Below are positions 15,095 to 53,559 of a stretch of DNA of 64,000 nt, one piece after another (the first letter of the stretch is position 1; every line of letters starts with the position of its first letter). The DNA comes from Sphingomonas sp. GTDB taxonomy: Bacteria; Pseudomonadota; Alphaproteobacteria; Sphingomonadales; Sphingomonadaceae. The stretch lies in the NCBI RefSeq assembly GCF_017304635.1, contig NZ_JAFKMA010000001.1, forward strand, positions 1 through 64,000, read 5' to 3'. The notes under the pieces are model-generated. The model had not been told where the DNA came from and did not search any database. It worked only from the letters and a program-made list of their open reading frames with translations. The position numbers and the translations under genes were made by a program.

Positions 15095-17362
15095 CTAGAA
15101 GGCCTTAAGCACCTTGACCCCGTACTGCCGCGGCGACCCCGCGAAATAGAGCCCGCTGTTCAGCGCGGCGACGTAATGCTGGTCGGTCAGGTTGGTCGCA
15201 TAGGCGGTGAGCGTCAGCGTGCCATGGGTGTAGGCGATCTGCGCGTTCAGGATCTTGCGCGCCTGCAACAGGTCGCCGCGATTGACGTTCTCGAACAACG
15301 TCGCCCACTGGTTGCCGACATAGCCGAAATTGGCGCGCGGCGTGATCGTGTCGCCGTTCGCCAGCTTGGCCTCATATTCCGCGCTCAGGTTGAACGTGAC
15401 GTTCGGCGCATAGGTCTGGCGCCGTCCGGCAAGATTGATGCAGTTGGTCGCGGTCGCGGCACCCCCTTTCAGCGGATCGCACGCGCCGGTCGCCGCCGCG
15501 CGCGGGTCGCTGGCGTAGAACTGACCGAGTTCGCTGTGCAGCACGTTGACGCCGGCGCCGAACTTGAACCCGCCGACCGTGGCGTCGATCTCGCCCTCGA
15601 ACCCGTAGATCTTGGTCGCGTTGGGCACGTTGAGTTCGATCCCGAAGGTCGGGAAGGTCGGATAGCCGATGATGACCTGGAAGTTCTTGTAGTCGTTGTA
15701 GAAGCCGGTCAGCGTCGTGCGGACGTGGCCGTTCGCCCAATTGGCCTTCCAGCCGGCTTCGTACGACGTCACGCGCTCCGGCTCGAACGGCGCCGGGTTG
15801 CCCAGCCCGACCGGCACGTTGAGCCCGCCCGGCCGGAAACCGGTCGCGACGAAGCCGTACAGATACTGGTCCGGGCTCAGCTTCCAGCCGAGCGACGCCT
15901 TGTACGAGAAATTATCCGACTTGACTGTCTGCGTCTGGTTGATCGGCGTGCCGTATTGCAGCACGTTGACGTAATTGGTCGAGCGGCTGGCGGTGTAGCG
16001 GCCGCCGAGTTCGAGCTTCAGGTTCGGCGTGATCTGCAACCCGATCTGGCCGAAGCCCGCCAGGCTACGCTCCGGATTGCGGCCGGCGAGCTGGTATTTG
16101 CACGCCGCCAGGTTGAACCCGTAGCACACGTCGATCGTGAAATTGTCGAACGGCCGCGGAAAGAAATAGGTGTTCCACATCCCGAACCCGCCGATCAGCC
16201 ACGTGAAGCGGCGATTGTCGGGCGAGGTGATGTTGAACTCCTGGCTGAACTGAGTCTCCGTCACGGTATCGAAGAAATACTGGTTCTTGATCGTGCCGGT
16301 GGTCGGATCGACGATGTTCGACGCGGTGCCGTCCAGGTCTGCCCTGTAGAGCGTGTTGCCAGTCTGGAACCCGGTGACCGAGCGGAACTTGGTGCCGTCG
16401 TTGGTGTCGTATTCGAGCTTCAGCACCGAGCGCACGAACTTGTCGCGCGCCCCCTGCGGCGTGTTGAGCTGGATGTCGTACAGGTCGCGCTTGTATGCCG
16501 GATACGCATCGCTGTGCTGCCAGAACGGCGAGGCGGGGTAGGCGCCCGAATCGAGCCAGTCGACATCGGTCTTCGACAGGACCGAGAAATGGTCGTTCGG
16601 CTTCCACAGGAAGCTGACGCGCCCGGCGAGATAGCCGAGGTTGCCGGGATCGTAGGGATAGGCGCTGCCGCCCGCCCCGGTGATGTGGAAGAAGCTGTCG
16701 CGACGCTGCCCGAACAGCGCGATGCGCGCGGCAAAGGTGTCGCTGACCGGAATATTGATCGCGCCCTGAATGCCGAAGTCGTTGTAATTGCCGTAATTCG
16801 CGTTGACGTAGCCGCGAATGCCGCCGTTGATGACGGGATCGTTGGTGTTGACGAACACCGCGCCGCCGGTCGCATTCTGTCCGACGATCGTGCCCTGCGG
16901 CCCGCGCAGCACCTGGATGTTGGCAACGTCGAAATAGGGCTCCATCTGAAAATAGCCGGGAAAGGTCGGCACGCCGTCGCGATAGGTGATGACGCCGGTC
17001 GTCGTCTGCGTATTGTGCTCGGCCTTGCCGATACCGCGGACGTTGAAGTCGTTGCCCTGGCCGAAATTGTTGACCACGATCGACGGCATCGCGAACTGCA
17101 ACGCATCGACGTTCGTCACGCCCTTGTTGCCCAGATCGGTCCCGGTCAGGACCGAGGCGGACAGTGGCGAGGTCATCAGATTCTCGGTTCGGCGAGTCGC
17201 GGTGACGACGATCTCGCGCGGCGCATCTTCCGCGGTCGCGGTCTCGTCGGTCTGCTGTGCGGGGGCGGACGTAGAGGCGCTCGGTGCGGTCTGTGCCGAC
17301 GCTGCTCCGCTACAGACGACCGCAAGCGCCGATGCGCTCAGCAACCACAGGCAAGCCTTCAT
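15095..17362 (-). CDS. TonB-dependent receptor of the esterase cluster
   Basis: A 755-residue outer-membrane receptor. A signal peptide ends ASAQ near residue 24, a TonB box (EIVVTATRR) follows, then the plug (SPLSASVLTGTDLGNKGVTNVDALQ ... NDFNVRGIG ... VLRGPQGTIVGQNATGGAV) and a barrel ending VKVLKAF. The plug motif RGPQGTxxGxNxxGG is typical of the Cir/FecA-like receptors that sphingomonads use for aromatics, sugars and other organics. The start at 17362 has GGGAGGA just upstream. It faces the MFS/esterase pair and is probably part of the same nutrient system. Confidence 0.92.
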   Translation of the reverse strand: MKACLWLLSASALAVVCSGAASAQTAPSASTSAPAQQTDETATAEDAPREIVVTATRRTENLMTSPLSASVLTGTDLGNKGVTNVDALQFAMPSIVVNNFGQGNDFNVRGIGKAEHNTQTTTGVITYRDGVPTFPGYFQMEPYFDVANIQVLRGPQGTIVGQNATGGAVFVNTNDPVINGGIRGYVNANYGNYNDFGIQGAINIPVSDTFAARIALFGQRRDSFFHITGAGGSAYPYDPGNLGYLAGRVSFLWKPNDHFSVLSKTDVDWLDSGAYPASPFWQHSDAYPAYKRDLYDIQLNTPQGARDKFVRSVLKLEYDTNDGTKFRSVTGFQTGNTLYRADLDGTASNIVDPTTGTIKNQYFFDTVTETQFSQEFNITSPDNRRFTWLIGGFGMWNTYFFPRPFDNFTIDVCYGFNLAACKYQLAGRNPERSLAGFGQIGLQITPNLKLELGGRYTASRSTNYVNVLQYGTPINQTQTVKSDNFSYKASLGWKLSPDQYLYGFVATGFRPGGLNVPVGLGNPAPFEPERVTSYEAGWKANWANGHVRTTLTGFYNDYKNFQVIIGYPTFPTFGIELNVPNATKIYGFEGEIDATVGGFKFGAGVNVLHSELGQFYASDPRAAATGACDPLKGGAATATNCINLAGRRQTYAPNVTFNLSAEYEAKLANGDTITPRANFGYVGNQWATLFENVNRGDLLQARKILNAQIAYTHGTLTLTAYATNLTDQHYVAALNSGLYFAGSPRQYGVKVLKAF

Positions 17363-43224: not shown

Positions 43225-44607
43225 GTGCCGGTGACCAATGCGGCGCGCGACCGGCTGAGGCAGGGATTCGCCTTCCGCGCGACGCAGCGGATTGAGGAGG
43301 CGGTCGCCACGATCGACGACGCGGCGGCGCTGGCGCCCGACGACGCCGCGATCGCGCTGGCGCAGGCGCGCATCCACTGGGAAAGCTGGCGCCCCGCCGC
43401 CGCCTTGTTCGCGCGCGTCACCGAACTGGCGCCCGACGATCCCAACGCGATCGGCGGGCTGACCGCGGCGCTTGCCGTCGAGGGGCGGCACGATGCCGCG
43501 GACGCCTTGCTGCAAGCGACCGTGACGCGTCACCCGGCATGGGTGGACGGTCATCTGCAACTCGCGCAATTGCGGCACGGTGCGGCGGCGGACGCGTTCG
43601 ACCGCAGTTTCGCCGCGGCGACGCGGGTCGTGCCGACGCACCTGCCGCTATGGCTTGCCTGGTTTCGCCTGCTGGCGACGGCGCGCGACTGGGCCGGCGC
43701 GCGGCGCGTGCTCGCGCAGGCGACCGCGCAAGCGGGGCGGCAGCGCGCGCTCGATCTCTGCGCGATCTTCCTGGCCAGCGAATCCGACGAAGCGGCGACC
43801 GATCCCCGGCTGTTCGACGCGGCGGCGGGCGTCGACGACCCCGGGCTCGACCTGTGCCGCGTGCGCTTCTGGTTGCGCAACGCTCGCCCCGATCGGGCCG
43901 AGGCGATCGCGCTGGCACGGATCGACGGGCCGGCCGCGCGCACCTTCTGGCCGTATCTGTCGCTGGCCTGGCGACTGATGGACGATTCGCGCGCAACGTG
44001 GTTCGATGGCGGCACTGCCTATATCGCGGCGACCGACATCGAGATGCCGCCGGCGGAGCGAGCCGCCCTCGCGGCCACCGTCCGCGGATTGCTCGCGACC
44101 GGCCGCCGCCACCTCGAGCAATCGGTCCGTGGCGGCATCCAGACCGAGCGCAACCTGTTCTTCCACCACGATCCGACGATCCAGCGCGCGCGCGGACGCG
44201 TGGGGACGGCGGTCGCCGACTATATCGCGGCGCTGCCGCCGATGCTCCCCGGCCATCCGTTGCTCGGGCCGGCGCGCGACACGATGCTGTTCGAGGGTAG
44301 CTGGTCGGTGCTCCTGCGCGGGGACGGCCACCACGCGCCGCACACGCACAGCCGCGGATGGATCAGCTCGGCATTCTATCTCGACCTGCCCGATACCGCA
44401 GGCGACCCCGACCCCCATGCCGGCCACCTCGCTTTCGGCACGCCACCGCTGGAGCTCGGACTGGATTTGCCGCCAATCCACCGCGTCGAACCGGCCCCGG
44501 CGAGGCTGGTCCTGTTCCCCTCGACGACATGGCACGCCACGCTGCCCTTCGCGACGGGCGAGCGGTTGACGATAGCTTTCGACGTCGCGGTGCCCGCCGC
44601 CGGATGA
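43225..44607 (+). CDS. TPR protein with C-terminal 2OG-Fe(II) oxygenase domain
   Basis: A protein of about 460 residues. The first half is helical TPR-like (RIEEAVATIDDAAALAPDDAAIALAQARIHWES; FARVTELAPDDPNAIGGL). The last 200 residues match the putative 2OG-Fe(II) oxygenase type: HTHSRGWISSAFYLDLP supplies the HxH pair, and LVLFPSTTWHATLPF with RLTIAFDV supplies the distal His and the 2OG Arg. A GTG start at 43225, or at 43231, is used, with AAAGGG upstream. Such proteins often sit beside TonB receptors and halogenase homologues in sphingomonads. Its promoter faces the LacI-type palindrome at 43056, so it may belong to the same regulon. Confidence 0.82.
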   Translation: MPVTNAARDRLRQGFAFRATQRIEEAVATIDDAAALAPDDAAIALAQARIHWESWRPAAALFARVTELAPDDPNAIGGLTAALAVEGRHDAADALLQATVTRHPAWVDGHLQLAQLRHGAAADAFDRSFAAATRVVPTHLPLWLAWFRLLATARDWAGARRVLAQATAQAGRQRALDLCAIFLASESDEAATDPRLFDAAAGVDDPGLDLCRVRFWLRNARPDRAEAIALARIDGPAARTFWPYLSLAWRLMDDSRATWFDGGTAYIAATDIEMPPAERAALAATVRGLLATGRRHLEQSVRGGIQTERNLFFHHDPTIQRARGRVGTAVADYIAALPPMLPGHPLLGPARDTMLFEGSWSVLLRGDGHHAPHTHSRGWISSAFYLDLPDTAGDPDPHAGHLAFGTPPLELGLDLPPIHRVEPAPARLVLFPSTTWHATLPFATGERLTIAFDVAVPAAG

Positions 44608-44644
44608 TGCCAGGATGAGTAACGCGGGCCTGTCCGCCAAATAT

Positions 44645-44692
44645 TTGGTCGGGGCGACAGGATTCGAACCTGCGACCCCCACACCCCCAGTG
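44645..44692. repeat. Left attachment repeat, 48 bp, partial tRNA-Pro
   Basis: This stretch is identical over 48 bp to 53259-53306, the 3' part of tRNA-Pro(GGG). It lacks the 5' half of the tRNA, so it is a remnant and not a gene. It marks the left border of the integrated element; integrase starts 160 bp further in. Confidence 0.93.
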
Positions 44693-44819
44693 CGGGCCAG
44701 CGAGTTTTCCGGGCGTTACCCAAATTTACGCCAGATGCCGTTAACCACGGATTTCCGCCGTTTTTGAACTACCGGCCTTTACAACCGATGGCGTCCAGTG
44801 GCACCAGATTACCGAAATC

Positions 44820-44850
44820 TGATGCCCATTTGATGCCCGGAGCGATGCCC
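44820..44850. repeat. Candidate integrase arm-type sites, left end
   Basis: GATGCCC occurs three times, at 44821, 44832 and 44844, spaced 11 and 12 bp, just before the integrase ATG. The first two copies with their spacer resemble the right-end site at 53173-53193 at 14 of 19 positions. This is the helical spacing expected of arm sites of a tyrosine integrase. Confidence 0.55.
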
Positions 44851-44852
44851 AC

Positions 44853-46187
44853 ATGGCAAGGTCGAAGCTAACGAAGACGGTCGTTGATGCGCTCGAACCG
44901 CGCGACAAGGATTACGTCGAATGGTGCGGCAAGCTGTCAGGCTTCGGCTGTCGCGTGCGCCCCAGCGGTCGCAAGGTGTTCATCATTCAATACCGCATTG
45001 GCGGGGTTGGCACCGTCCGCAAACAGAACATCGGTAAGTATGGTCCCGGCGGGCTTACCGTTGATGAAGCATGGGATCGGGGAGACAAGCTTTTGCGCGT
45101 TGCGCGCGATGGCATCGATCCTGCCGCAGCGGAGAAAAAGAAGAAAGCCGAACTGACTGTCGCCGAACTATGCGACGAATATATCGAACGCGGTTGCGGG
45201 AATAAGCGCGCATCGACCGTCGATACCGACAAGGCCGCGCTTGATAACCACGTTAAGCCGTTGCTCGGTTCGAAGAAGATCAGCGACGTTACCGACGCCG
45301 ATTTCAAGGCGTTCATGCGCGACGTTGAGAAGGGCAAGACGGCAACAACGATCGTGACGAAGAAGGGCGAACGTCCCGGCGTTCGCGGCGGCGCTGGCGT
45401 TGCCCGTCGCACGGCCCGCGTGTTGAGCGGCGTATTCACCTACGCGGTTGGCGAAAAGTATCTCGAAAAGAACCCGCGCGGCACCGTGAAGATCGCCAAG
45501 GACAACGAGAACGAACGCTACCTTAGCGCCGACGAAATCGATCGGCTCGGCGCCACGATGCACGAAGCCGAACACGCCGGCTTGCCGTGGGCGTTGCGGG
45601 AAGGCGCCAAGGCCAAGCATCGCGCCAAGGACGCCGACACGCGCCGCGCCCCGAAAATGTCGCCGCACGCCATCGCCGCCATTCGGCTGTTGCTCGCAAC
45701 CGGAATGCGATCGGGCGAAGTGTTGACGCTCAAGTGGGAATTCTATGACGCCGAAAACGGCTTCCTGTATCTGCCTGTTACGAAGACGAAGAAGCGCGTC
45801 GTCGTGCTTTCCGACTTCGCCCGCGAAATCCTCGATACGCTCCGCAAGACCGCCACGAAGGGCCATCCCTACGTCATCGAAGGCGAAGGCGAAAATGAAC
45901 ACCGCACCGACTTGAAGCGGCCTTGGGCGCAAATCATTGCCCACGCTGGCCTTGGCAAAGTGCGGCTTCACGATATCCGCCACACCTTCGCGTCGCACGC
46001 CGCGTTGGACGGCATCAGCCTGTCCGTTGTGGGCAAGCTGCTAGGCCATAGCCAAACCGCCACGACGGCGCGCTACACGCACTTCGCCGAAACGGCGTTG
46101 CGTGCCGCCGCGAACCGGGTCGCGACGCCGCTTTCCGACAAGATCGCGCGCCAATCGAACGTCGTCCCGCTTAAGGCTGCGTCGTGA
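44853..46187 (+). CDS. int: Tyrosine recombinase/integrase of the island
   Basis: A 444-residue phage-type integrase with an N-terminal DUF4102-like arm-binding domain, a central core-binding domain and a C-terminal catalytic domain. The catalytic set is complete: Arg286 (ATGMRSGEVL), a Lys in the TKTKKRV turn (about 311-314), His373 and Arg376 (HDIRHTFAS), His399 (LGHSQ) and Tyr408 (TARYTHF). It would recombine the tRNA-Pro attachment sites. It lies directly inside the left att repeat and overlaps the next gene as GTGA. A possible directionality factor is the HTH gene at 46617. Confidence 0.96.
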   Translation: MARSKLTKTVVDALEPRDKDYVEWCGKLSGFGCRVRPSGRKVFIIQYRIGGVGTVRKQNIGKYGPGGLTVDEAWDRGDKLLRVARDGIDPAAAEKKKKAELTVAELCDEYIERGCGNKRASTVDTDKAALDNHVKPLLGSKKISDVTDADFKAFMRDVEKGKTATTIVTKKGERPGVRGGAGVARRTARVLSGVFTYAVGEKYLEKNPRGTVKIAKDNENERYLSADEIDRLGATMHEAEHAGLPWALREGAKAKHRAKDADTRRAPKMSPHAIAAIRLLLATGMRSGEVLTLKWEFYDAENGFLYLPVTKTKKRVVVLSDFAREILDTLRKTATKGHPYVIEGEGENEHRTDLKRPWAQIIAHAGLGKVRLHDIRHTFASHAALDGISLSVVGKLLGHSQTATTARYTHFAETALRAAANRVATPLSDKIARQSNVVPLKAAS

Positions 46188-46537
46188 CCGCGAAGCGCGG
46201 AAGGCCGGTTGGCACGAAACGACGTGCCGAAGCCATCGCCGCCGCCCGCGCGATCCTAGCCGGTCAATTCGCCGACGTGCGCGAAGCTGCTACCGCATTG
46301 CGCCCGGCGCGCATTGGCAGCGATGAAGGCTTTCGCGACTTCATCGCAACCGTCGAAGAAGAACTACATGCGATTGCCGAAGTCGAGCCGGTTAGCATTC
46401 GCGCCGCTCGCGCATCGAAGGACCGGGGCCGCAATCGTCGCGCGCAACCGATCGTGCAGCGTCAAGAAATGAACGCGACGAAGCGGCACATCAATGACGT
46501 GTTGGGATGGTCGCTGCAAATCCGCGATCCGAATTAA
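46184..46537 (+). CDS. Small basic island protein, AT-hook-like N-terminus
   Basis: A 117-residue protein whose first residues TAKRGRPVGTKRR look like an AT-hook (RGRP), followed by a helical stretch (EAIAAARAILAGQFADVREAATAL) and a basic C-terminal half. It may bind DNA beside the integrase. GTG start, overlapping the integrase stop. No family is recognised. Confidence 0.7.
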   Translation: MTAKRGRPVGTKRRAEAIAAARAILAGQFADVREAATALRPARIGSDEGFRDFIATVEEELHAIAEVEPVSIRAARASKDRGRNRRAQPIVQRQEMNATKRHINDVLGWSLQIRDPN

Positions 46538-46616
46538 TTCCCCCCTGTAGGGCCGATCGGGGCCGGATATCCGAAGCCATCTCGCGCCACCCCGGCGCAT
46601 TCAAGGAGATGGCAGT

Positions 46617-46853
46617 ATGGAACCCGCTTGTATGCGCCGCGACAAGGCGGCGGACTATCTCAAGGAGCGATACGGCTTCGGCTCGGCCAACACGCTTGCC
46701 AAGCTGGCGGTGATCGGCGGCGGGCCGGTGTTCCGGCGAATCGGGCGCTGGCCGGTCTATACGGCGGCGGACCTAGATGCGTGGGCAGCGTCGCGCATGT
46801 CGGCGCCGGGCCGATCGACCGCCGAAGTCGGCTCCGCGCGTAGCGCCGCATAG
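46617..46853 (+). CDS. AlpA/excisionase-like HTH protein
   Basis: A 78-residue protein with the MerR/AlpA-type winged helix-turn-helix common in phage and island regulators: MRRDKAADYLKERYGFGSANTLAKLAVIGGGPVFRRIGRWPVYTAADLDAWAA. AAGGAG lies just before the ATG. The size, position between integrase and replication-like gene and fold fit a directionality factor or an activator of the island. Low-complexity residues after 62 are probably unstructured. Confidence 0.85.
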   Translation: MEPACMRRDKAADYLKERYGFGSANTLAKLAVIGGGPVFRRIGRWPVYTAADLDAWAASRMSAPGRSTAEVGSARSAA

Positions 46854-46862
46854 GAACGCCCA

Positions 46863-48257
46863 ATGTCCGACGTAACGCCGCCGCCCGGATTGGTCGGCGA
46901 AGTGGCGCAGTTCATTTACGCTGCTGCGCCGCGCCAGATCGAAGAAGTCGCCCTTGCGGGCGCTATCGGTTTTGTCGCCGGTATCGTCGGTCGTTCCCAC
47001 AATGTGAACGGGACCGGGCTAAACCAATATGTCCTAGTCCTAGCTGACACTGGAATGGGCAAGGAAGCCGCCGCATCCGGTATCGGGCAAATCATCAGCG
47101 CGCTAACGAAACCGTCGCCGGGAAACCCGTTCGGGTCGGCTCACGCGGCAAGTTTCGTTGGACCGTCCGATATGGCATCGGGTCAAGGTCTTTTGCGAAC
47201 TTTGTCGCGTCGAAAGCCGCCATCGTTCGTTTCGATCGTCGGCGAATTCGGACTTCGCTTTGCCCAAATGGCGCAACCGCGCGTGAACGCCGCCGACGCC
47301 GCGCTGCTTCGCGTGATGTTGGACTTATACAACAAGAGCGGCGAAGGCCGGGTATTGGGCGAAACGGTCTATAGCGAGAAAGAACGGGATACCGCCGCGA
47401 TCGTCGCGCCCGCTGTCTCATTCCTTTGCGAAAGCACGCCTAGCACCTTCTTCGAAAACCTAAGCGAAGCGATGATAACCAATGGCTTGCTTCCGCGCTT
47501 CATAATCATGGAGTTCAAAGGCAAGCGCCCCGCACGCAACAAGGAGGCTGACAAGGTTCGCCCCGAACTAGCTATGCTAGAGCGCATCGCAAATTTGATG
47601 AGTTATTGCGCCAGCGCAAATCAGAACAATTCCGTTACGCATGTCACGATGGCTTCGGACGCCGAAGAATACCTAGATCGCTTCGATTTGTATTGCGACG
47701 AACGGCACGACGAAGCCACCAATGACGTAAACCGCGAATTGTATAGTCGTGCCCACATGAAGGCGGTCAAGCTTGCCGGTCTGATTGCCGTAGGGGGCGA
47801 TTTCGAAAATCCGATCGTCACGCTCGATATCGCAATGTGGGCAACCGCACAGATCGAACGCGATATCGCTCGGCTTATCGTCCGGTTCGATAGCGGCGAC
47901 ATTGGTGTCGTTGCCGGAAACGAGGCGAAGCAGGAACAAGCCGTTCTACGGTGCATACACGAATATCAACATGGCGAGTTCAAGCGGTTCGCCAACTACG
48001 GTGTATCCGAAGAAATGCACAACATCGGCGCCTTCACGCAAACTTACATATCGAAGCGTGTCCGCAACCTTCCCGCATTCGATGATAAAATTGGGCGCAC
48101 GAAGGCAATCGAACGGGTGTTGCACAGTCTCGCCCACACTTCGGCGGTGATCCAAGAATTCTCAACCGAACAGACGCTTGCGACATTCGGCACAAGAGCG
48201 CGCACATTCATCGTCAACGACTTCGACGCTTTCAATGCCATGCTTCGGTCGCCGTAG
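46863..48257 (+). CDS. DUF3987-like ATPase/primase-helicase-type protein
   Basis: A 464-residue protein with a Walker A type loop LADTGMGKEAA (residues 60-70) and the general layout of DUF3987 proteins that stand at the replication position of phages and integrative elements. Further features are FVSIVGEFGLRFAQMA (Walker-B-like) and SFLCESTPSTFFENL. It would unwind or prime element DNA; this is inferred from the family. It starts 10 nt after the AlpA-like gene, so the two are one transcript. Confidence 0.72.
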   Translation: MSDVTPPPGLVGEVAQFIYAAAPRQIEEVALAGAIGFVAGIVGRSHNVNGTGLNQYVLVLADTGMGKEAAASGIGQIISALTKPSPGNPFGSAHAASFVGPSDMASGQGLLRTLSRRKPPSFVSIVGEFGLRFAQMAQPRVNAADAALLRVMLDLYNKSGEGRVLGETVYSEKERDTAAIVAPAVSFLCESTPSTFFENLSEAMITNGLLPRFIIMEFKGKRPARNKEADKVRPELAMLERIANLMSYCASANQNNSVTHVTMASDAEEYLDRFDLYCDERHDEATNDVNRELYSRAHMKAVKLAGLIAVGGDFENPIVTLDIAMWATAQIERDIARLIVRFDSGDIGVVAGNEAKQEQAVLRCIHEYQHGEFKRFANYGVSEEMHNIGAFTQTYISKRVRNLPAFDDKIGRTKAIERVLHSLAHTSAVIQEFSTEQTLATFGTRARTFIVNDFDAFNAMLRSP

Positions 48258-48292
48258 ACTGGGCATAAGAGCCGAAAACCGCAGAAATCCGC

Positions 48293-48390
48293 CATTTAAG
48301 AACGTAAGAAGATAGAGCAATCGGACCCCACCGCCCCCGACCCGGCGCCTTGCTGCTCAACTGTCTCTTATCTTCTTATATTCTTAAATG
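48293..48390. repeat. 22-bp inverted repeat with 54-nt loop
   Basis: Arms 48293-48314 and 48369-48390 match in 20 of 22 positions (core TAAGAAGATA). The arms are AT-rich while the loop is GC-rich. It could be a replication origin or transfer site, a termination structure after the DUF3987-like gene, or a structured RNA. Confidence 0.7.
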
Positions 48391-48553
48391 AAGTAAAAGA
48401 TAAGGTATTACAGTAGTTTAGCTGTCCAATGGATTTCTTACCGCTCTCTTATTTCGCCGACCACCGCACGCATGGTGTGCGACTATGCGGTTCATTGTTC
48501 GGCGATTCTCGCGAAGTTTCAAACGCTTGCGGAGTGCGCGTGATCGCCGCCGA

Positions 48554-48581
48554 ATTGTGGGCAGCATATAGGTAGCAATTA
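48554..48581 (+). repeat. Island repeat copy R1
   Basis: A 28-bp sequence with core GGGCAGCATATAGGTAGCA matches R2 (51272-51299) at 27 of 28 positions. It lies 16 bp before the first gene of the plus-strand cargo block. Two half-sites of type GG(G)YAGCA are 11 bp apart. Confidence 0.8.
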
Positions 48582-48597
48582 ATTCGAGGCATTCGAC

Positions 48598-49173
48598 ATG
48601 ACCAACGATATTCAGTTCAATGACAAGGCGCATTCGATCATTTCGGATTTGCTCGACCGCAACGAAGATCGGCTTGTTCGCAACAGGGATTGCGAACCGG
48701 AGCGGGCCAACGATCGCCTTGCATATGACTATATCATGCGATGCGCGACCATGAGCCGGGGCGCGACGACATTCATATTTCACGATGAGCGCGTCGGAAC
48801 GGAGTGCTTCCTGTTCGATCTTCACGGCTCGCTCGCGAAAATTCGTTCGAAGCGTAACCGGGTCGCTTGCACGGCGCAGCTAATGCAGTTTCAGCGGGAT
48901 TATTTCCCGCAATACAATTCCATTCTACGGCTCACGTATCTGAATGAACTTTCGAAGATCGATCATAGACAAAACTGCATTCTAAACGGAGTAATAAAGT
49001 TAGCTGCCGCAAAATTGCCGAACGTTCGAAGCGATATTCGACGCAAGCTTCGAAGTCTAGGTTATGGATACGATGCATTATTGGTTGCTGATGACACGCT
49101 AGAGCGGGAATTAGCTAGGCCAAGGGCAGGAATATTCACGATCTCGCTTGACAATACTTCCGAGTCGGCTTGA
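48598..49173 (+). CDS. Unknown island cargo protein (plus block, 1)
   Basis: A 191-residue soluble protein, no family recognised. It has an acidic/basic helical N-terminus (FNDKAHSIISDLLDRNEDRLVRN) and a basic C-terminal region (VRSDIRRKLRSLGYGYDALL). AT content is higher than in host genes, suggesting recent transfer. It starts 16 bp after repeat R1 and overlaps the next gene. Confidence 0.72.
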   Translation: MTNDIQFNDKAHSIISDLLDRNEDRLVRNRDCEPERANDRLAYDYIMRCATMSRGATTFIFHDERVGTECFLFDLHGSLAKIRSKRNRVACTAQLMQFQRDYFPQYNSILRLTYLNELSKIDHRQNCILNGVIKLAAAKLPNVRSDIRRKLRSLGYGYDALLVADDTLERELARPRAGIFTISLDNTSESA

Positions 49174-49466
49174 TAAAAGGGACGGAATTAGGCTCTAACT
49201 GGCTGAATATCGTGTCTTGGACTTCGCAAAAATCGCAGGAAACAGCGCCTCCCGCGCCGACCCCCGCCCCCCGGCGGTATCGGTGCCGCTTGGACACCGC
49301 GACGGACGTGCGCCGTGAGATGCAACGCATCTACCGGGAGAGCCGGTCGCAGATGATATCGGTCGATCACGCGAGCAAATGGGCGAACATGCTGTCGCTG
49401 ATCGTGCGCGCGATCGAGACGACGGAAATCGAGCGCCGACTCGACGCGATCGAGGCGCGGGGCTGA
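49170..49466 (+). CDS. Small island protein resembling phage packaging-associated proteins
   Basis: A protein of about 98 residues starting at a TTG that overlaps the previous stop (TTGA). The C-terminal part TATDVRREMQRIYRESRSQMISVDHASKWANMLSLIVRAIETTEIERRLDAIE looks like small proteins that precede terminase genes in alphaproteobacterial prophages. That memory is weak, so packaging is only a suggestion. The real start could be a GTG at about 49207. It ends TGATG with the next gene. Confidence 0.6.
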   Translation: MIKGTELGSNWLNIVSWTSQKSQETAPPAPTPAPRRYRCRLDTATDVRREMQRIYRESRSQMISVDHASKWANMLSLIVRAIETTEIERRLDAIEARG

Positions 49467-49858
49467 TGACGCTTCGGGGCATCAAAGGCCGGTTGAGTCG
49501 GGCGGAAAGCAACGGCGGGGCCGACGACAAGGGGCCGATCCCGCGCGTCCTGTTTGTGGGCATCAACGAAACCAAGGCCGAAGCCTTGGCGCGTTTCGCC
49601 GAACAGTATCCGCACCGCCCGGCAAATCACGCGCTGCTTATCCTGCCCTCAAAGCCGCGCACGCCGGACGAAGAAGCGATCTACGAAACCCGCTTCGAAT
49701 TATCGCAACGTGCCGTTGTGCAAGCCGCGCAAAGCGAGCGCCGCGCGCCCGTCGTTACGCCCGTCGCCGACGTGCCGCCGCACCTAGCCCGATATTGGAA
49801 AACTGCCCCGTCGAAAGCGTCGATCGACGCGCCGGGGAATTGGAGGCCGAAATGCTAA
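49466..49858 (+). CDS. Unknown island cargo protein (plus block, 3)
   Basis: A 130-residue protein beginning MTLRGIKGRLSRAES, translationally coupled to the previous gene (TGATG). A central part (RVLFVGINETKAEALARFAEQYPHRPANHALLIL) resembles a small alpha/beta fold. No family is recognised. Confidence 0.65.
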   Translation: MTLRGIKGRLSRAESNGGADDKGPIPRVLFVGINETKAEALARFAEQYPHRPANHALLILPSKPRTPDEEAIYETRFELSQRAVVQAAQSERRAPVVTPVADVPPHLARYWKTAPSKASIDAPGNWRPKC

Positions 49859-50532
49859 ATCGCAACGATACCGCGCTTCGTTTTGTCGAGCGGATGCAAG
49901 TCCCGACCGGGCGCCATGCGTCGTTGGGGAAGCCCGACGAATACAGCAACGAACCGCGACGGCTTATTCAGGCGGCGAATGATGCGATGGCTAAGGCCGT
50001 CGATGTAGTCGTTCGGGTTGCCAAAGACGAAGGTCGCACCGTCGCCGCTCGAAATCATCGGGCGATGCAGGAAGCCGATGCGCTTGGCGCGACGCTCGCC
50101 AAATCGCGTGACGGCTTGCGCACCGAAGCCGATAAGGTCGAAGCTGCCGCAAGGGCGATGATCGCCGACAAGTTCACGCTCGACCCATCCCGATCGTTTT
50201 TCCACAATTTGAAGCACGCATGGGTTGCGGAAAAGTATCGCGATCCTGCCAACGGCAAAGTGGCGATCGACAAGGCAATCAAGCAGGATTTCGAACTGGC
50301 GGCGGTGATCCATTCCAACGAAGGCTATCTTTTGGGGATGAGCGATGAAGTTCGATTGAACTTCGCGTCGCACGGCCTTTTAGCGCATATTCCCGAAGCC
50401 GACGCCGAACTTGGGCGGGCCGATGCCCTTCGAACCGTTGCCGATCGCTATGACGGTGTGATTAAGGACGCGCATTCGTCGTTCTATCTGCGCGGTGCAG
50501 CGATGGCTTACGAACGGACGCACGTCGAATGA
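49852..50532 (+). CDS. Unknown island cargo protein (plus block, 4)
   Basis: A 226-residue mainly helical protein (MLNRNDTALRFVERMQVPTGRH; AARNHRAMQEADALGATLAKSRDGLRTEADKVEAAARAMIADKF). It overlaps both neighbours by a few bases. No domain recognised; the helix-rich make-up could fit a scaffold, portal-like or DNA-binding role, but nothing decides this. Confidence 0.68.
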   Translation: MLNRNDTALRFVERMQVPTGRHASLGKPDEYSNEPRRLIQAANDAMAKAVDVVVRVAKDEGRTVAARNHRAMQEADALGATLAKSRDGLRTEADKVEAAARAMIADKFTLDPSRSFFHNLKHAWVAEKYRDPANGKVAIDKAIKQDFELAAVIHSNEGYLLGMSDEVRLNFASHGLLAHIPEADAELGRADALRTVADRYDGVIKDAHSSFYLRGAAMAYERTHVE

Positions 50533-51080
50533 ATGCGCTCGCACAACAGCGCCTTGCCGCGCTCGCCGGTTGGTTCGACCGAAACTCGCGCCAAGGTTGG
50601 ACGCCGCTCGGCGACAAGCTGTTGATCGGGCAGTTCGCCGCGATCGTGCCCACAAACTTCGCCGAACCGCCGCCGGTCGTTGACTATCACCCCGACGCAT
50701 TGCCGTTCTTCGTGAGCGACGAAGCTTGTGTGGGCATGTCGTTTGCCGACTTCGAAACCGGCGCCCCCGCGACGCAGGATCGCGGCGATCAGCGACTATC
50801 GCACGTGCTATGGTTGGTGAACGACGGCAAGCTGCCGCCCTTCGGCCTTGTGCCCTTGATCGACCCGCGAGAGCCGATCGGGGAGGCGGTGGCGCGGGCG
50901 GGGCTGGCGATCGACCTAGACGCCTTCCCGGTGCTGGCGGTGCCCCTGTGGCCGCTCAACGCCAACGCGCAATATGTCCTAGGGCATCGGCTCCCCTTTG
51001 CGCCCAAGCCCGGCGCCGCCGACCCAGACATGCCGACCGACCCCATGCCCGCCGGTTTCGTCGGCAGCGATCGATTCTAA
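50529..51080 (+). CDS. Unknown island cargo protein (plus block, 5)
   Basis: A 183-residue protein starting MNALAQQRLAALAGWFDRN and overlapping the previous stop as ATGA. The rest is rich in Pro, Asp and hydrophobic residues (LPPFGLVPLIDPREPIGEAVARAGLAIDLDAFPVLAVPLWPLNANAQY). No family is recognised. A terminator follows at 51130-51170, so it ends the plus block. Confidence 0.68.
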   Translation: MNALAQQRLAALAGWFDRNSRQGWTPLGDKLLIGQFAAIVPTNFAEPPPVVDYHPDALPFFVSDEACVGMSFADFETGAPATQDRGDQRLSHVLWLVNDGKLPPFGLVPLIDPREPIGEAVARAGLAIDLDAFPVLAVPLWPLNANAQYVLGHRLPFAPKPGAADPDMPTDPMPAGFVGSDRF

Positions 51081-51129
51081 GGCTTCGTCGCGCGATAGTG
51101 GTCCTTCGCTATCCGACGCAGCGGGGGAG

Positions 51130-51170
51130 TAGCCGTCCGGTTGCACCGAACCGGGCGGCTATTTCGTCTT
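51130..51170 (+). terminator. Intrinsic terminator of the island plus block
   Basis: A 13-bp stem (51130-51142 with 51049-offset partner 51149-51161, one wobble) has a 6-nt loop and is followed by TTTCGTCTT on the plus strand. It lies 50 bp after the last plus-strand cargo gene. Confidence 0.75.
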
Positions 51171-51271
51171 AGAGGCGACCGCAACATCAATGATGCGAAG
51201 GTCGCGGGTCGGAAAAGACGAATTTTCGGCGTGTTTTCAAAGGTTCGCTGCCGATCACCGCCGCTTCGAAC

Positions 51272-51299
51272 ATTGTGGGCAGCATATGGGTAGCAATTA
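51272..51299 (+). repeat. Island repeat copy R2
   Basis: A 28-bp copy with core GGGCAGCATATGGGTAGCA, nearly identical to R1. It overlaps the stop codon of the minus-strand gene at 51297 and separates the plus block from the minus block. Weak similarity to R1 also extends upstream of the core (TTTCAAA and GATCNCCGCCG). Confidence 0.8.
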
Positions 51300-52133
51300 C
51301 GTTGACGCTGGTTCGTTTTCGCTGTTCGGCCGCACTTGCGCGAGTTCCCATTTGACGTAGTTTTTGTGACCGCAGGAGCATGAGAACGAGCCAACTTCGT
51401 CATGCTTCATTTCCATGAAATAACGCCAAGGCAAATGGCATTCGGCGCGGCAAGACTCGCAATTCACGTCGATGGTTTGCGGTTCAAAATAGAAATCTTC
51501 GCCCTGCTTTTCCGTCTTCCAAGTCAGTTTGCAATTCGGATTGATGCAATGAATTTGTTGGCCGTGACGTAACAGTTTTGCCCGACGCTTGTTCTTTTCG
51601 CCGCATGCCGGGCAATCAAATGAGACTTCCATGCCGATGCCGCTAAAGGTCATCGTTCCCTTTGCGAGACGGCGAAGTTCCTCAACGACTTCCTCCACCT
51701 TCGCACGAATAGCGGTTTTGTCGCCGTAGTCGGCAATGGCATCGTCTCGGTTTTTGGGAACACGGACGTGTAGCGCCAGTTTTGCAAGTGCTTGCCACAT
51801 TTTCGAGATGCGTTTCGGATCGAAGCCAATTTCCGTTCCGACTTCCACGAAATCGTCATCTTCGGGCTTAACGTCCGGATTGCGACCAACCATTAGGGTC
51901 ATGGTTTCGGTGACGTTTTCGTCAACGTCGGTCATTAGCGTGTTGACGATCTGGCCGGGTTGCCACTTTTTAAGCTGATCGTGGGATATGTAGTCGTGAC
52001 GCTGGCGAAGTCGGTCGTAGCACACCTTCTCTAGCGCAAGGCGTGCTTCGAGCGCGGCATACGTGACGCTTTGATCGGTATCCTGATCGAGCAAAGCCGT
52101 GATGCGTTCAATGATCGGTGGAATATTGAGCAT
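51297..52133 (-). CDS. Unknown island protein with two C-terminal zinc ribbons (minus block, 3)
   Basis: A 278-residue protein. The N-terminal 165 residues are helical (LEARLALEKVCYDRLRQRHD; IRAKVEEVVEELRRLAKG). The C-terminal part has two cysteine clusters of zinc-ribbon type: Cys174/Cys177 with Cys196/Cys201, and Cys225/Cys228 with Cys252/Cys254. This suggests nucleic-acid or protein binding. It is last in a three-gene minus-strand operon, 12 nt after its neighbour, and its stop lies in repeat R2. No known family or function. Confidence 0.75.
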   Translation of the reverse strand: MLNIPPIIERITALLDQDTDQSVTYAALEARLALEKVCYDRLRQRHDYISHDQLKKWQPGQIVNTLMTDVDENVTETMTLMVGRNPDVKPEDDDFVEVGTEIGFDPKRISKMWQALAKLALHVRVPKNRDDAIADYGDKTAIRAKVEEVVEELRRLAKGTMTFSGIGMEVSFDCPACGEKNKRRAKLLRHGQQIHCINPNCKLTWKTEKQGEDFYFEPQTIDVNCESCRAECHLPWRYFMEMKHDEVGSFSCSCGHKNYVKWELAQVRPNSENEPAST

Positions 52134-52145
52134 GGCACGAGCCAG

Positions 52146-52673
52146 TTAGCCGAAGCCGATCCGCTTCGGTGGACGACCGCCATTCGTCCAAAAATCGAGC
52201 GCATCGCAGATATGGCCGTATGTGTCTTCCGCGATCGATTTCATCGCGGCAAGTAGCTTCGCGTCGTCCTTCATGTCGAATGAAAGCGCGCCGTTCATCA
52301 TTGGCGAATTCAGGGTTAGTTCCGTCCCGTCGCGATCGATATCGATCGGCCAAACGATGACAACGTTCGGCAACACGGCGGGACCGGCCTCAAGCTGGAT
52401 ACCAAGCCCAATCGTTTTGCCCTGTTCGCTGGACGTGACGGCATCATGTGGGCTGTCAACGCGCTCATAGCGATCATATTCGGGCGTTGGGCCATGATCG
52501 AATTTGTAGAAATAGATGCTAGATTCGTCGCAACCGCAGCTTTGTGCGACTTCGTGTCGAAGCACCGCCGCGATCCGATAATGCACCAAACGTTCGTCGC
52601 CGCCGCGTTCTAACACGGCCTTGAACTTATGGCTGATTGTCGCCCAACGATCGGCGCTACTGGCTTCGGCCAT
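52146..52673 (-). CDS. Unknown island protein (minus block, 2)
   Basis: A 175-residue protein starting MAEASSADRWATISHKFKAVLERGG. A mixed alpha/beta part follows (SSIYFYKFDHG; GLGIQLEAGPAVLPNVVIVWPIDIDRDG), ending RPPKRIGFG. No family is recognised. Its start overlaps the end of the previous gene by 17 bp, so it is translated with it. Confidence 0.72.
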   Translation of the reverse strand: MAEASSADRWATISHKFKAVLERGGDERLVHYRIAAVLRHEVAQSCGCDESSIYFYKFDHGPTPEYDRYERVDSPHDAVTSSEQGKTIGLGIQLEAGPAVLPNVVIVWPIDIDRDGTELTLNSPMMNGALSFDMKDDAKLLAAMKSIAEDTYGHICDALDFWTNGGRPPKRIGFG

Positions 52674-53067
52674 CTTCCAATTCCTTCGGGGCTTCGTCGC
52701 TCGGCACCTTACTGTCCGTTTCGATCGATATTTCGCAACCGATTTCGCGGAGCCGGTCTTGTTCGTCCCGACTGATTTTCAGTGCGCCATCGAATTTCAG
52801 CGAGAATTTGCCGCCCTTCTTTGCGAACGGCTTCAATGTGCGGTAGATGCCCGCCAGCAATAGCCCTGTTTTCGCGGCGTCGTTGACGATGATCCAAATT
52901 TGATGGGCTTCGGTGAGCGCCGCCGACTTATTTAGGTCTTCGGTGATGCTAAAGCTATCGTCGCCATCCGCCTCGGCCTTGTTGGCGAATGCCCACAACG
53001 CATCGCTCGCCTCGTCGTCGTTCGTCCGGATACCGATATCGGCGTGATCGCCCCACGTATCGAGCAT
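52657..53067 (-). CDS. Unknown island protein (minus block, 1)
   Basis: A protein of about 136 residues from ATG 53067 (MLDTWGDHADIGIR); ATG 53100 would add 11. One moderately hydrophobic stretch (IWIIVNDAAKTGLLLAGIY) may be a buried helix or a weak membrane segment. The C-terminal part is acidic (EISIETDSKVPSDEAPKELEDG). It is first in the minus-strand operon next to the right att. No family is recognised. Confidence 0.68.
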   Translation of the reverse strand: MLDTWGDHADIGIRTNDDEASDALWAFANKAEADGDDSFSITEDLNKSAALTEAHQIWIIVNDAAKTGLLLAGIYRTLKPFAKKGGKFSLKFDGALKISRDEQDRLREIGCEISIETDSKVPSDEAPKELEDGRSQ

Positions 53068-53167
53068 TGCAGCACCCCCGTTCGCTGTTTGAAGCGGCAT
53101 TTCGACGCGCGACGAAGGTAAGTGCGAGGCCGAATCTTTCCAAGGTTTCGGCGGGTAGCGCGACAAG

Positions 53168-53195
53168 CGCAACTGCTACCCATATGCTACCCGTA
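53168..53195 (-). repeat. Island repeat copy R3 (inverted)
   Basis: TGCTACCCATATGCTACCC at 53174-53192, read on the other strand, matches R2 at about 24 of 30 positions. It lies in inverted orientation to R1 and R2, 65 bp inside the right att repeat and 100 bp before the first minus-block gene. Its two half-sites are 11 bp apart. Confidence 0.7.
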
Positions 53196-53258
53196 AGAGC
53201 CGTTTCGGCGACCACAGCGCGGGCGTCGCTGCTAATTTGTTGTTTTTGCTCTCTGAAA

Positions 53259-53306
53259 TTGGTCGGGGCGACAGGATTCGAACCTGCGACCCCCACACCC
53301 CCAGTG
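53259..53306. repeat. Right attachment repeat, 48 bp, within tRNA-Pro
   Basis: This stretch is identical over 48 bp to 44645-44692. It covers the 3' end, T arm, variable region and anticodon arm side of the intact tRNA-Pro and marks the right border of the element. Confidence 0.93.
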
Positions 53307-53336
53307 TGATGCGCTACCAGGCTGCGCTACGCCCCG
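53260..53336 (-). tRNA. tRNA-Pro (GGG)
   Basis: A 77-nt minus-strand cloverleaf with encoded CCA. The acceptor CGGGGCG (53336 inwards) pairs with CGCCCCG before A and CCA. The anticodon is GGG in CTGGGGGTG and the T arm reads GGTTCGAATCC. The 3' half is also the att site of the integrated element at 44645-53306, whose insertion left the tRNA complete. Confidence 0.95.
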
Positions 53337-53559
53337 ACCAGGCGAGGCCGCCTGTCGAGGCGGCTTCGGAAGGCGGGCGTCTAGGGCGTCGGGGGCGGGG
53401 ATGCAAGCGGTAGCGCGCCGCGTGCCGTGCGGCGGACACGGCACGCCGGTTGCGTGGCCGCGCGCATGGTGATAGCGCGCGGCGCTTGATGCCGGCGCCT
53501 GGTATATCCGGGTTTTTCGGGGGAACGCGCCGGACCCGCCTTATCGAATCAGGACGACG

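Follow-up and report, generated by a model that had tools for sequence, protein, structure and literature searches.

The stretch analysed here (termed the window) is the first 64,000 nucleotides (nt) of contig NZ_JAFKMA010000001.1 of Sphingomonas sp. It contains an 8.6-kb element in the 3′ part of a tRNA-Pro(GGG) gene, delimited by a perfect 48-bp direct repeat (spacing 8,614 bp). A short repeated site occurs in this element at four places, termed armL, R1, R2 and R3; their positions, together with those of the genes, are given in Table 1. An initial annotation of the region had recorded three of these places, while armL and the 48-bp attachment repeat were absent from it. The repeats are probably arm-type sites of the element's own tyrosine integrase: armL and R3 flank the attachment core, R1 and R2 are further copies in the interior, located at module boundaries, and a slot of variable gene content is framed by R2 and R3.

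The order along the element is attL, armL, the integrase gene (int), a gene of 117 amino acids (aa), a 78-aa gene, a DUF3987 gene, R1, five plus-strand genes, R2, three minus-strand cargo genes, R3 and attR. The 78-aa protein of the window itself has no Pfam match. A profile made from 16 of its relatives matches RdfS (PDB 8dgl, E-value = 1e-10), and 6 of the 16 have an HTH_17 match; the protein is thus a predicted excisionase. An Rfam search over positions 44500–53500 shows the tRNA and no other structured RNA. Relatives display tRNA-Pro beside yajC without element DNA nearby; the left flank there is non-syntenic, and the exact empty junction was not found.

Table 1. Genes, attachment repeats and repeat sites of the element in tRNA-Pro(GGG); positions are those of the window.
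Feature	Position	Strand	Sequence, evidence or remark
attL copy of the 48-bp attachment core (3′ part of tRNA-Pro)	44645–44692		identical to 53259–53306
armL	44821–44850	-	three half-sites GGGCATC: pair 44821–44838 and third 44844–44850; predicted integrase arm-type site
Tyrosine integrase, 444 aa, with arm-binding domain	44853–46187	+	Pfam PF00589 (7e-24) and PF13356 (3e-12, above its cut-off)
117-aa gene, 4-nt overlap with int (position of PICMI iolg)	46184–46537	+	open reading frame list, sequence; no Pfam match above cut-off
Predicted excisionase, 78 aa, AlpA-like/RdfS-like	46617–46853	+	profile match of relatives
DUF3987 replication (primase/helicase-type) protein, 464 aa	46863–48257	+	PF13148 (3e-9); phrog_3022 (3e-120)
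R1	48554–48581	+	GGGCAGC-ATAT-AGGTAGC; interior site
Five plus-strand genes (191, 98, 130, 226 and 183 aa)	48598–51080	+	open reading frame list; no Pfam match above cut-off
R2	51272–51299	+	GGGCAGC-ATAT-GGGTAGC; interior site
Cargo gene 1, 278 aa	51297–52133	-	no Pfam match above cut-off; relatives in other islands
Cargo gene 2, 175 aa	52146–52673	-	no Pfam or PADLOC match
Cargo gene 3, about 136 aa (could be longer, from a TTG at 53172)	52657–53067	-	no Pfam or PADLOC match
R3	53168–53195	-	GGGTAGC-ATAT-GGGTAGC; predicted attR-side arm-type site
attR copy of the attachment core, inside tRNA-Pro(GGG)	53259–53306		identical to 44645–44692
tRNA-Pro(GGG), integration target	53260–53336	-	ARAGORN; Rfam RF00005

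Repeat sites in the window

Direct comparison shows R1 and R2 to be identical at 27 of 28 bases, as first described. R3 had been taken for an inverted, more diverged copy, and this is borne out: R2 and R3 are complementary at 88% over 25 nt, and the half-sites of R3 form a pair (53175–53192) on the minus strand. A half-site scan likewise supports the description of each copy as two half-sites 11 bp apart, the half-sites being 7 bp long in all three.

Patterns of 25 bp and 19 bp, with three mismatches or fewer allowed, have two and three matches respectively in the window, and none in 100 shuffles each. In the genome as a whole these three repeats are the sole pattern matches, as against none for a reversed control. 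The half-site scan of the 64 kb (spacers of 2–7 bp) yields five pairs, i.e. R1, R2, R3 and two overlapping pairs at armL, and all five are inside the one element. The repeats are a real feature, beyond chance.

The armL pair is situated 14 bp upstream of the integrase start and 128 bp from the 48-bp attachment core; R3 is 66 bp from the core. (An additional inverted half-site is present beside R3 at positions 53153–53159, on the cargo side; in the related elements L049 and L051 it is on the attachment side.) The initial annotation placed R1 and R2 exactly before and after the five plus-strand genes. This holds for R1, which ends 16 bp before the first of these genes, but not for R2, which begins 191 bp past the stop of the last one (position 51080). 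R2 instead directly adjoins the stop codon of the cargo gene on the minus strand whose end is at 51297.

Related elements, interior copies and the cargo slot

Relatives of the integrase (E-value up to 1e-60) were found in 3 of 396 other genomes sampled from the family. Species genomes were also scanned; of the 43 loci obtained, 21 were examined for arm sites (L038–L058; the other 22 are L059–L080). Duplicate records (L036/L051, L035/L053, L038/L113, L041/L081, L039/L082 and L043/L083) are counted once. A tandem pair of half-sites 11 bp apart is present upstream of int in all 21 loci; the two halves differ by at most one base in 20 of them and by two bases in L040.

Ten complete elements with an attachment repeat could be compared. 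Seven have a size of 8.6 kb (window), 8.7 kb (L039), 11.3 kb (L041), 8.2 kb (L049), 8.5 kb (L051), 11.4 kb (L052) and 13.7 kb (L115). Three belong to other integrase lineages: L104 (14.4 kb), L105 (12.3 kb) and an element of genome G153 (26.7 kb, with a 19-bp exact repeat). A tandem pair on each side of the core is present in 8 of the 10; a 16-bp stretch is repeated near both ends of L105, and L039 has a pair on the int side only. The distance from the start of R3 to the end of the core is 111 bp in L041, L049 and L051, 112 bp in L052 and 131 bp in the window. L115 comes from a further genus that was searched; it has both arms and no interior site, and a second locus of that genus, L114, has an int-side pair. 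Searches of two further genera yielded nothing, and three distant loci from a viral collection display no such sites.

Several further observations concern more distant loci. The G153 element (L088/L089, contig 2, ~930–957 kb) is located at tRNA-Gly; its integrase is only 23% identical, a near-identical tandem site is present at both ends, and an AlpA match is found beside the tRNA-side site. L087 (positions 298–1615) appears to be an element remnant at tRNA-Arg: 47 bp beyond the tRNA there is a site of the R3 type, and a gene of 142 aa and one related to the 98-aa gene are followed by chromosomal-looking genes. A loose pattern search (two mismatches or fewer) gave hits in 27 of 397 genomes including that of the window, and a reversed control in 12 of 397, so that the hits are partly noise. 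Of 27 such loci outside the window's own genome, four (L004, L005, L018 and L019) have a tRNA within 3 kb, and in three of these the site is 46–66 bp past the tRNA end. Two loci (L021 and L030) have an integrase relative, and one hit (L093) is inside a gene that is presumably related to murG.

For interior sites a half-site score was trained on the int-side pairs of 19 loci (one of them, L043, was mis-picked), with a threshold score of 18 or more. Two interior sites each are present in the window, L041, L049 and L051, one in L040, whose contig ends before attR, and none in L039 and L052. Flanks amounting to 180 kb contain none, and the means obtained by resampling are 0.03 or less per element. 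Both interior sites are thus found in 4 of the 10 complete elements, at the same module boundaries, and R2 is found in two partial elements (L040 and L126). The four-place layout of the window recurs in three relatives, L041, L049 and L051.

Relatives of some of the five plus-strand genes are present in L040, L041, L049 and L051. Five other genomes of the genus that have a relative of the 183-aa gene were also inspected, and only L126 has R2 and R3; it is located beside tRNA-Arg, and its contig begins near the 183-aa gene. The other four (L122–L125) show no integrase relative and no such four-place family. An in-frame TAG was also observed in relatives of the 183-aa gene, in three (L117, L118 and L121) of five other genomes of the genus.

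The orientation of the sites is largely constant: R2 is on the plus strand in 6 of 6 elements and R3 on the minus strand in 5 of 5, while R1 is on the minus strand in 3 of 4 and on the plus strand in the window. The near identity of R1 and R2 in the window over 28 bp, together with the reversal of R1 relative to the other R1 sites, suggests that one copy replaced the other. In a search made without a motif, the four places form the top family in the window, L049 and L051; in L041 the site is recovered at three of its four places and another family ranks higher. R1 of L041 is of a weaker kind and is inside an open reading frame of uncertain start, and R1 of L049 and of L051 is ~120 bp from the next gene start.

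The R2–R3 slot has a length of 1.2–3.0 kb and contains different genes in all five elements where both sites are seen; their ten cargo proteins show no match between elements at an E-value of 0.01. Strong defence-type matches are found for the 989-aa methylase of L041, which matches type I/IIG and specificity models, and for the AAA ATPase of L051 (559 aa), which matches AriA, PtuA and AbiLi. L049 carries a 207-aa protein with an MtlR match above cut-off and weak matches to HEPN-type models, together with a 184-aa gene, and of the three genes of L126 one matches PDC-S02 weakly. The three genes of the window slot show no defence-type model match. R2 is 2–12 bp from the stop codon of a cargo gene in 5 of 6 elements, the arrangement in L040 being ambiguous. 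Defence-type genes are not confined to the slot, since two further ones, a gene of GmrSD_N/NsnA type and one that is weakly HEPN-like, are present in the R1–R2 block of L041 (positions 15138–17142).

Among 396 other genomes of the family, 7 have a relative of the 278-aa cargo protein, six at 54%–68% identity and one at 24%. Two of these are in tRNA-Lys elements with other integrases (L104 and L105), and the gene thus moves between elements. At least 282 relatives of the protein are present in a protein collection; among the 120 listed, most are unnamed and some are annotated as Zn-ribbon or Zn-finger proteins.

L049 and L051, the sole close pair, differ through most of the interior. Their nucleotide homology resumes at R3, at the beginning of a stretch up to the tRNA that is also expected to be conserved for attachment. 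No breakpoint inside a repeat was seen among the elements compared. The initial annotation had proposed a modular layout in which blocks could be swapped through the repeats, and had suggested a search for different gene sets between the copies in other islands. The modular layout is upheld, as the repeats are found at the same boundaries in relatives and the R2–R3 genes differ in every element; constant neighbours were not found. Swapping through the repeats does not gain support: the sites have an arm-type position and covary with the integrase, and no breakpoint within them was observed.

The predicted reader of the sites

Lambda-type integrases have arm-type sites on both sides of the core. 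Such sites hold the integrase; they are not cut and are not crossover sites. The repeats of the window are read as sites of this type because of their position around the core, because the integrase has an arm-binding domain (PF13356) and because the site covaries with the integrase. In Mantel tests over 17 loci, distances between int-side sites were compared with distances between the proteins: the integrase N-domains show a correlation (r = 0.63, p = 0.0004) and the excisionases show none (r = −0.20, p = 0.86; partial r = −0.29). With L043 removed, the values are 0.61 (p = 0.001) and −0.13 (p = 0.73).

A further comparison is provided by L049 and L051. Their integrases are 92% identical, and the alignable part of their interiors is limited to the excisionase gene and a single stretch of 46 bp. 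The interior sites of both, kilobases from int, carry the G-type half-site of the shared integrase. At position 7 of the interior halves there are nine C and one T in the window, L041 and L040, and nine G and one C in L049, L051 and L126 (Fisher p = 0.0001 for an element's own half-site type, the T being excluded). The match of the interior sites to their own integrase in L049 and L051 is less open to linkage, because these sites are kilobases away in DNA that does not align.

The other candidate reader is the 78-aa AlpA/RdfS-like protein, which would act as an excision factor at the ends and as a transcription regulator at R1 and R3. A relative of this protein is found in 17 of the aligned loci and an AlpA match also in the G153 element; the related factors RdfS and TorI are described as regulating transcription, and direct repeats one helical turn apart suit such proteins, e.g. 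BldC (PMC11963761). The similarity of the sites, however, does not follow the excisionase. L050 and L052 have kept the common site with excisionases that are 29%–38% identical to others in the listed pairs, whereas in L048, L043, L049 and L051 the site has changed and the excisionases are up to 72%–76% identical to those of common-site loci. In addition, no consensus motif is reported for RdfS (PMC11963761). The excisionase is thus a rather unlikely reader, and of the two proteins named in the initial annotation the integrase is favoured, because the site distance follows the integrase N-domain.

Several points weigh against the reading of the repeats as integrase arm-type sites. Because of the linkage between int and the site beside it, shared descent makes up part of the covariation, and the permutation ignores phylogeny; the half-sites for the test were entered by hand. 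The half-site of armL in the window (GGGCATC) differs from that of R1–R3 (GGGYAGC), and L039 has an int-side pair only, with no clear attR-side pair. Interior sites are absent, by the scans made, from 6 of the 10 complete elements (L115, L104, L105 and G153 among them), and the integrase family as a whole can thus do without R1 and R2. As regards a role in expression, R2 is at a gene tail, where an operator does not fit, and the element has one promoter-like match (minus strand, 48494–48522, near R1) as against a shuffle mean of 3.5.

The absence of R1 and R2 from these six elements, and the resemblance of the two copies in the window to recent copies of each other, would also be expected if they were passive leftovers, i.e. 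arm sites copied inward by past recombination and now without function. This is very improbable, in view of their occurrence at the same places in four elements and of the half-site type, which is matched to the integrase despite surroundings that do not align. Another possibility, also quite improbable, is that R2 and R3 are true exchange sites at which the integrase inserts and removes cargo cassettes in the manner of an integron. The closeness of R2 to the cargo stop codons, the inverted arrangement of R2 and R3 in 5 of 5 elements and the differing cargo agree with this, as does the identity of R1 and R2 in the window, which extends past the half-sites, with R1 reversed relative to three relatives as if a copy had been replaced. 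Yet no attachment core is present at R1 or R2, no breakpoint was observed within a repeat, a crossover between the inverted R2 and R3 would invert the slot and not excise it, and compact genomes likewise place genes near sites.

Short direct repeats at two interior places beside a replication gene could also be iterons read by the replication protein of the element. This explanation is the least probable of those considered: L049 and L051 have a common site type and integrase but unlike replication genes (AAA_25 in one and a relative of the DUF3987 gene in the other), and many kinds of element have these pairs on both sides of the core. A reading of the repeats as promoters was likewise rejected, with one promoter-like match as against the shuffle mean of 3.5; terminator-like matches number 8, as against 12.6.

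If the repeats are arm-type sites, armL and R3 would be bound by the arm-binding domain of the integrase, with recombination of the core carried out by its catalytic domain, and the RdfS-like protein would set the direction of recombination. R1 and R2, which are kilobases inside the element and outside attP, would work in an arm-like manner; their function is most likely that of integrase-bound operators or boundaries. The integrase bound at armL and at R1, just before gene starts, would also act as an operator and tie expression of the modules to the level of integrase. This is the simplest reading of the two sites, though a less certain one, and is suggested because both directly precede a gene start, in the manner of the int-repressing arm sites of KplE1 (PMC2951348). 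R2, being at the tail of a gene, would most likely mark or insulate the cargo boundary. Exchange of cargo would proceed by ordinary recombination in the conserved flanks and not by integrase cutting at the repeats; exchange at the repeats themselves is possible.

Relation to known systems

The element resembles the PICMI phage satellites of Vibrionaceae, judged by its genes. PICMI satellites (prototype 6,110 bp) have the order int, an overlapping gene, an alpA-type gene, a DUF3987 gene and accessory genes (PMC10803314). The element of the window is also small and displays the same order, with a 4-nt overlap after int and a DUF3987 primase; the alpA role is assigned through relatives and not by a Pfam match of the protein itself. 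Unlike PICMI, which is located next to fis, the element is inserted in tRNA-Pro(GGG) of an alphaproteobacterial host, and it is termed PICMI-like because of this tRNA site. It also adds the five-gene block and the interior arm-type copies. The available text of PMC10803314 makes no mention of such repeats for PICMI.

In the IntS systems of ICEMlSym-R7A (PMC11963761) and KplE1, as in the window, short sites flank the core, one site overlaps the int leader, and an arm-binding integrase is accompanied by a winged helix-turn-helix excisionase. The arm sites of those systems are within attP or attL (the P sites of ICEMlSym-R7A IntS within attP), whereas the window has two more sites 3.7 and 6.4 kb inside. 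The slot, with its changing genes, several of them defence-like, is similar to the defence hotspots of P4 and P2 (satellite slots of 1–5 kb with changing, often defence-type genes; PMC9122126), but these are between two conserved genes next to cos, whereas the slot is framed by two arm-type sites by attR. Sites dispersed over a mobile genome outside the main operator are also known as the stoperators of mycobacteriophages (PMC9283540). Stoperators are bound by the immunity repressor, whereas here the predicted reader is the integrase and the places number just four. In the open-licence literature searched, no description of a satellite with integrase sites in its interior was found.

A wider proposal is that the integrase reads a four-place code over the whole element, by which it inserts the satellite, times its modules and, through the inverted R2 and R3, keeps a slot where defence genes are swapped with its help. 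This proposal is rather unlikely.

Descriptions of arm-type sites usually place them within the attachment region. If the reading of the repeats as integrase sites is correct, the integrase would act on the rest of the element as well, through inner boundary copies that are matched to it in each of several satellites. It would offer a testable answer to how a cargo slot can have fixed borders and changing contents, and the repeats would be a sequence mark by which such slots may be found.

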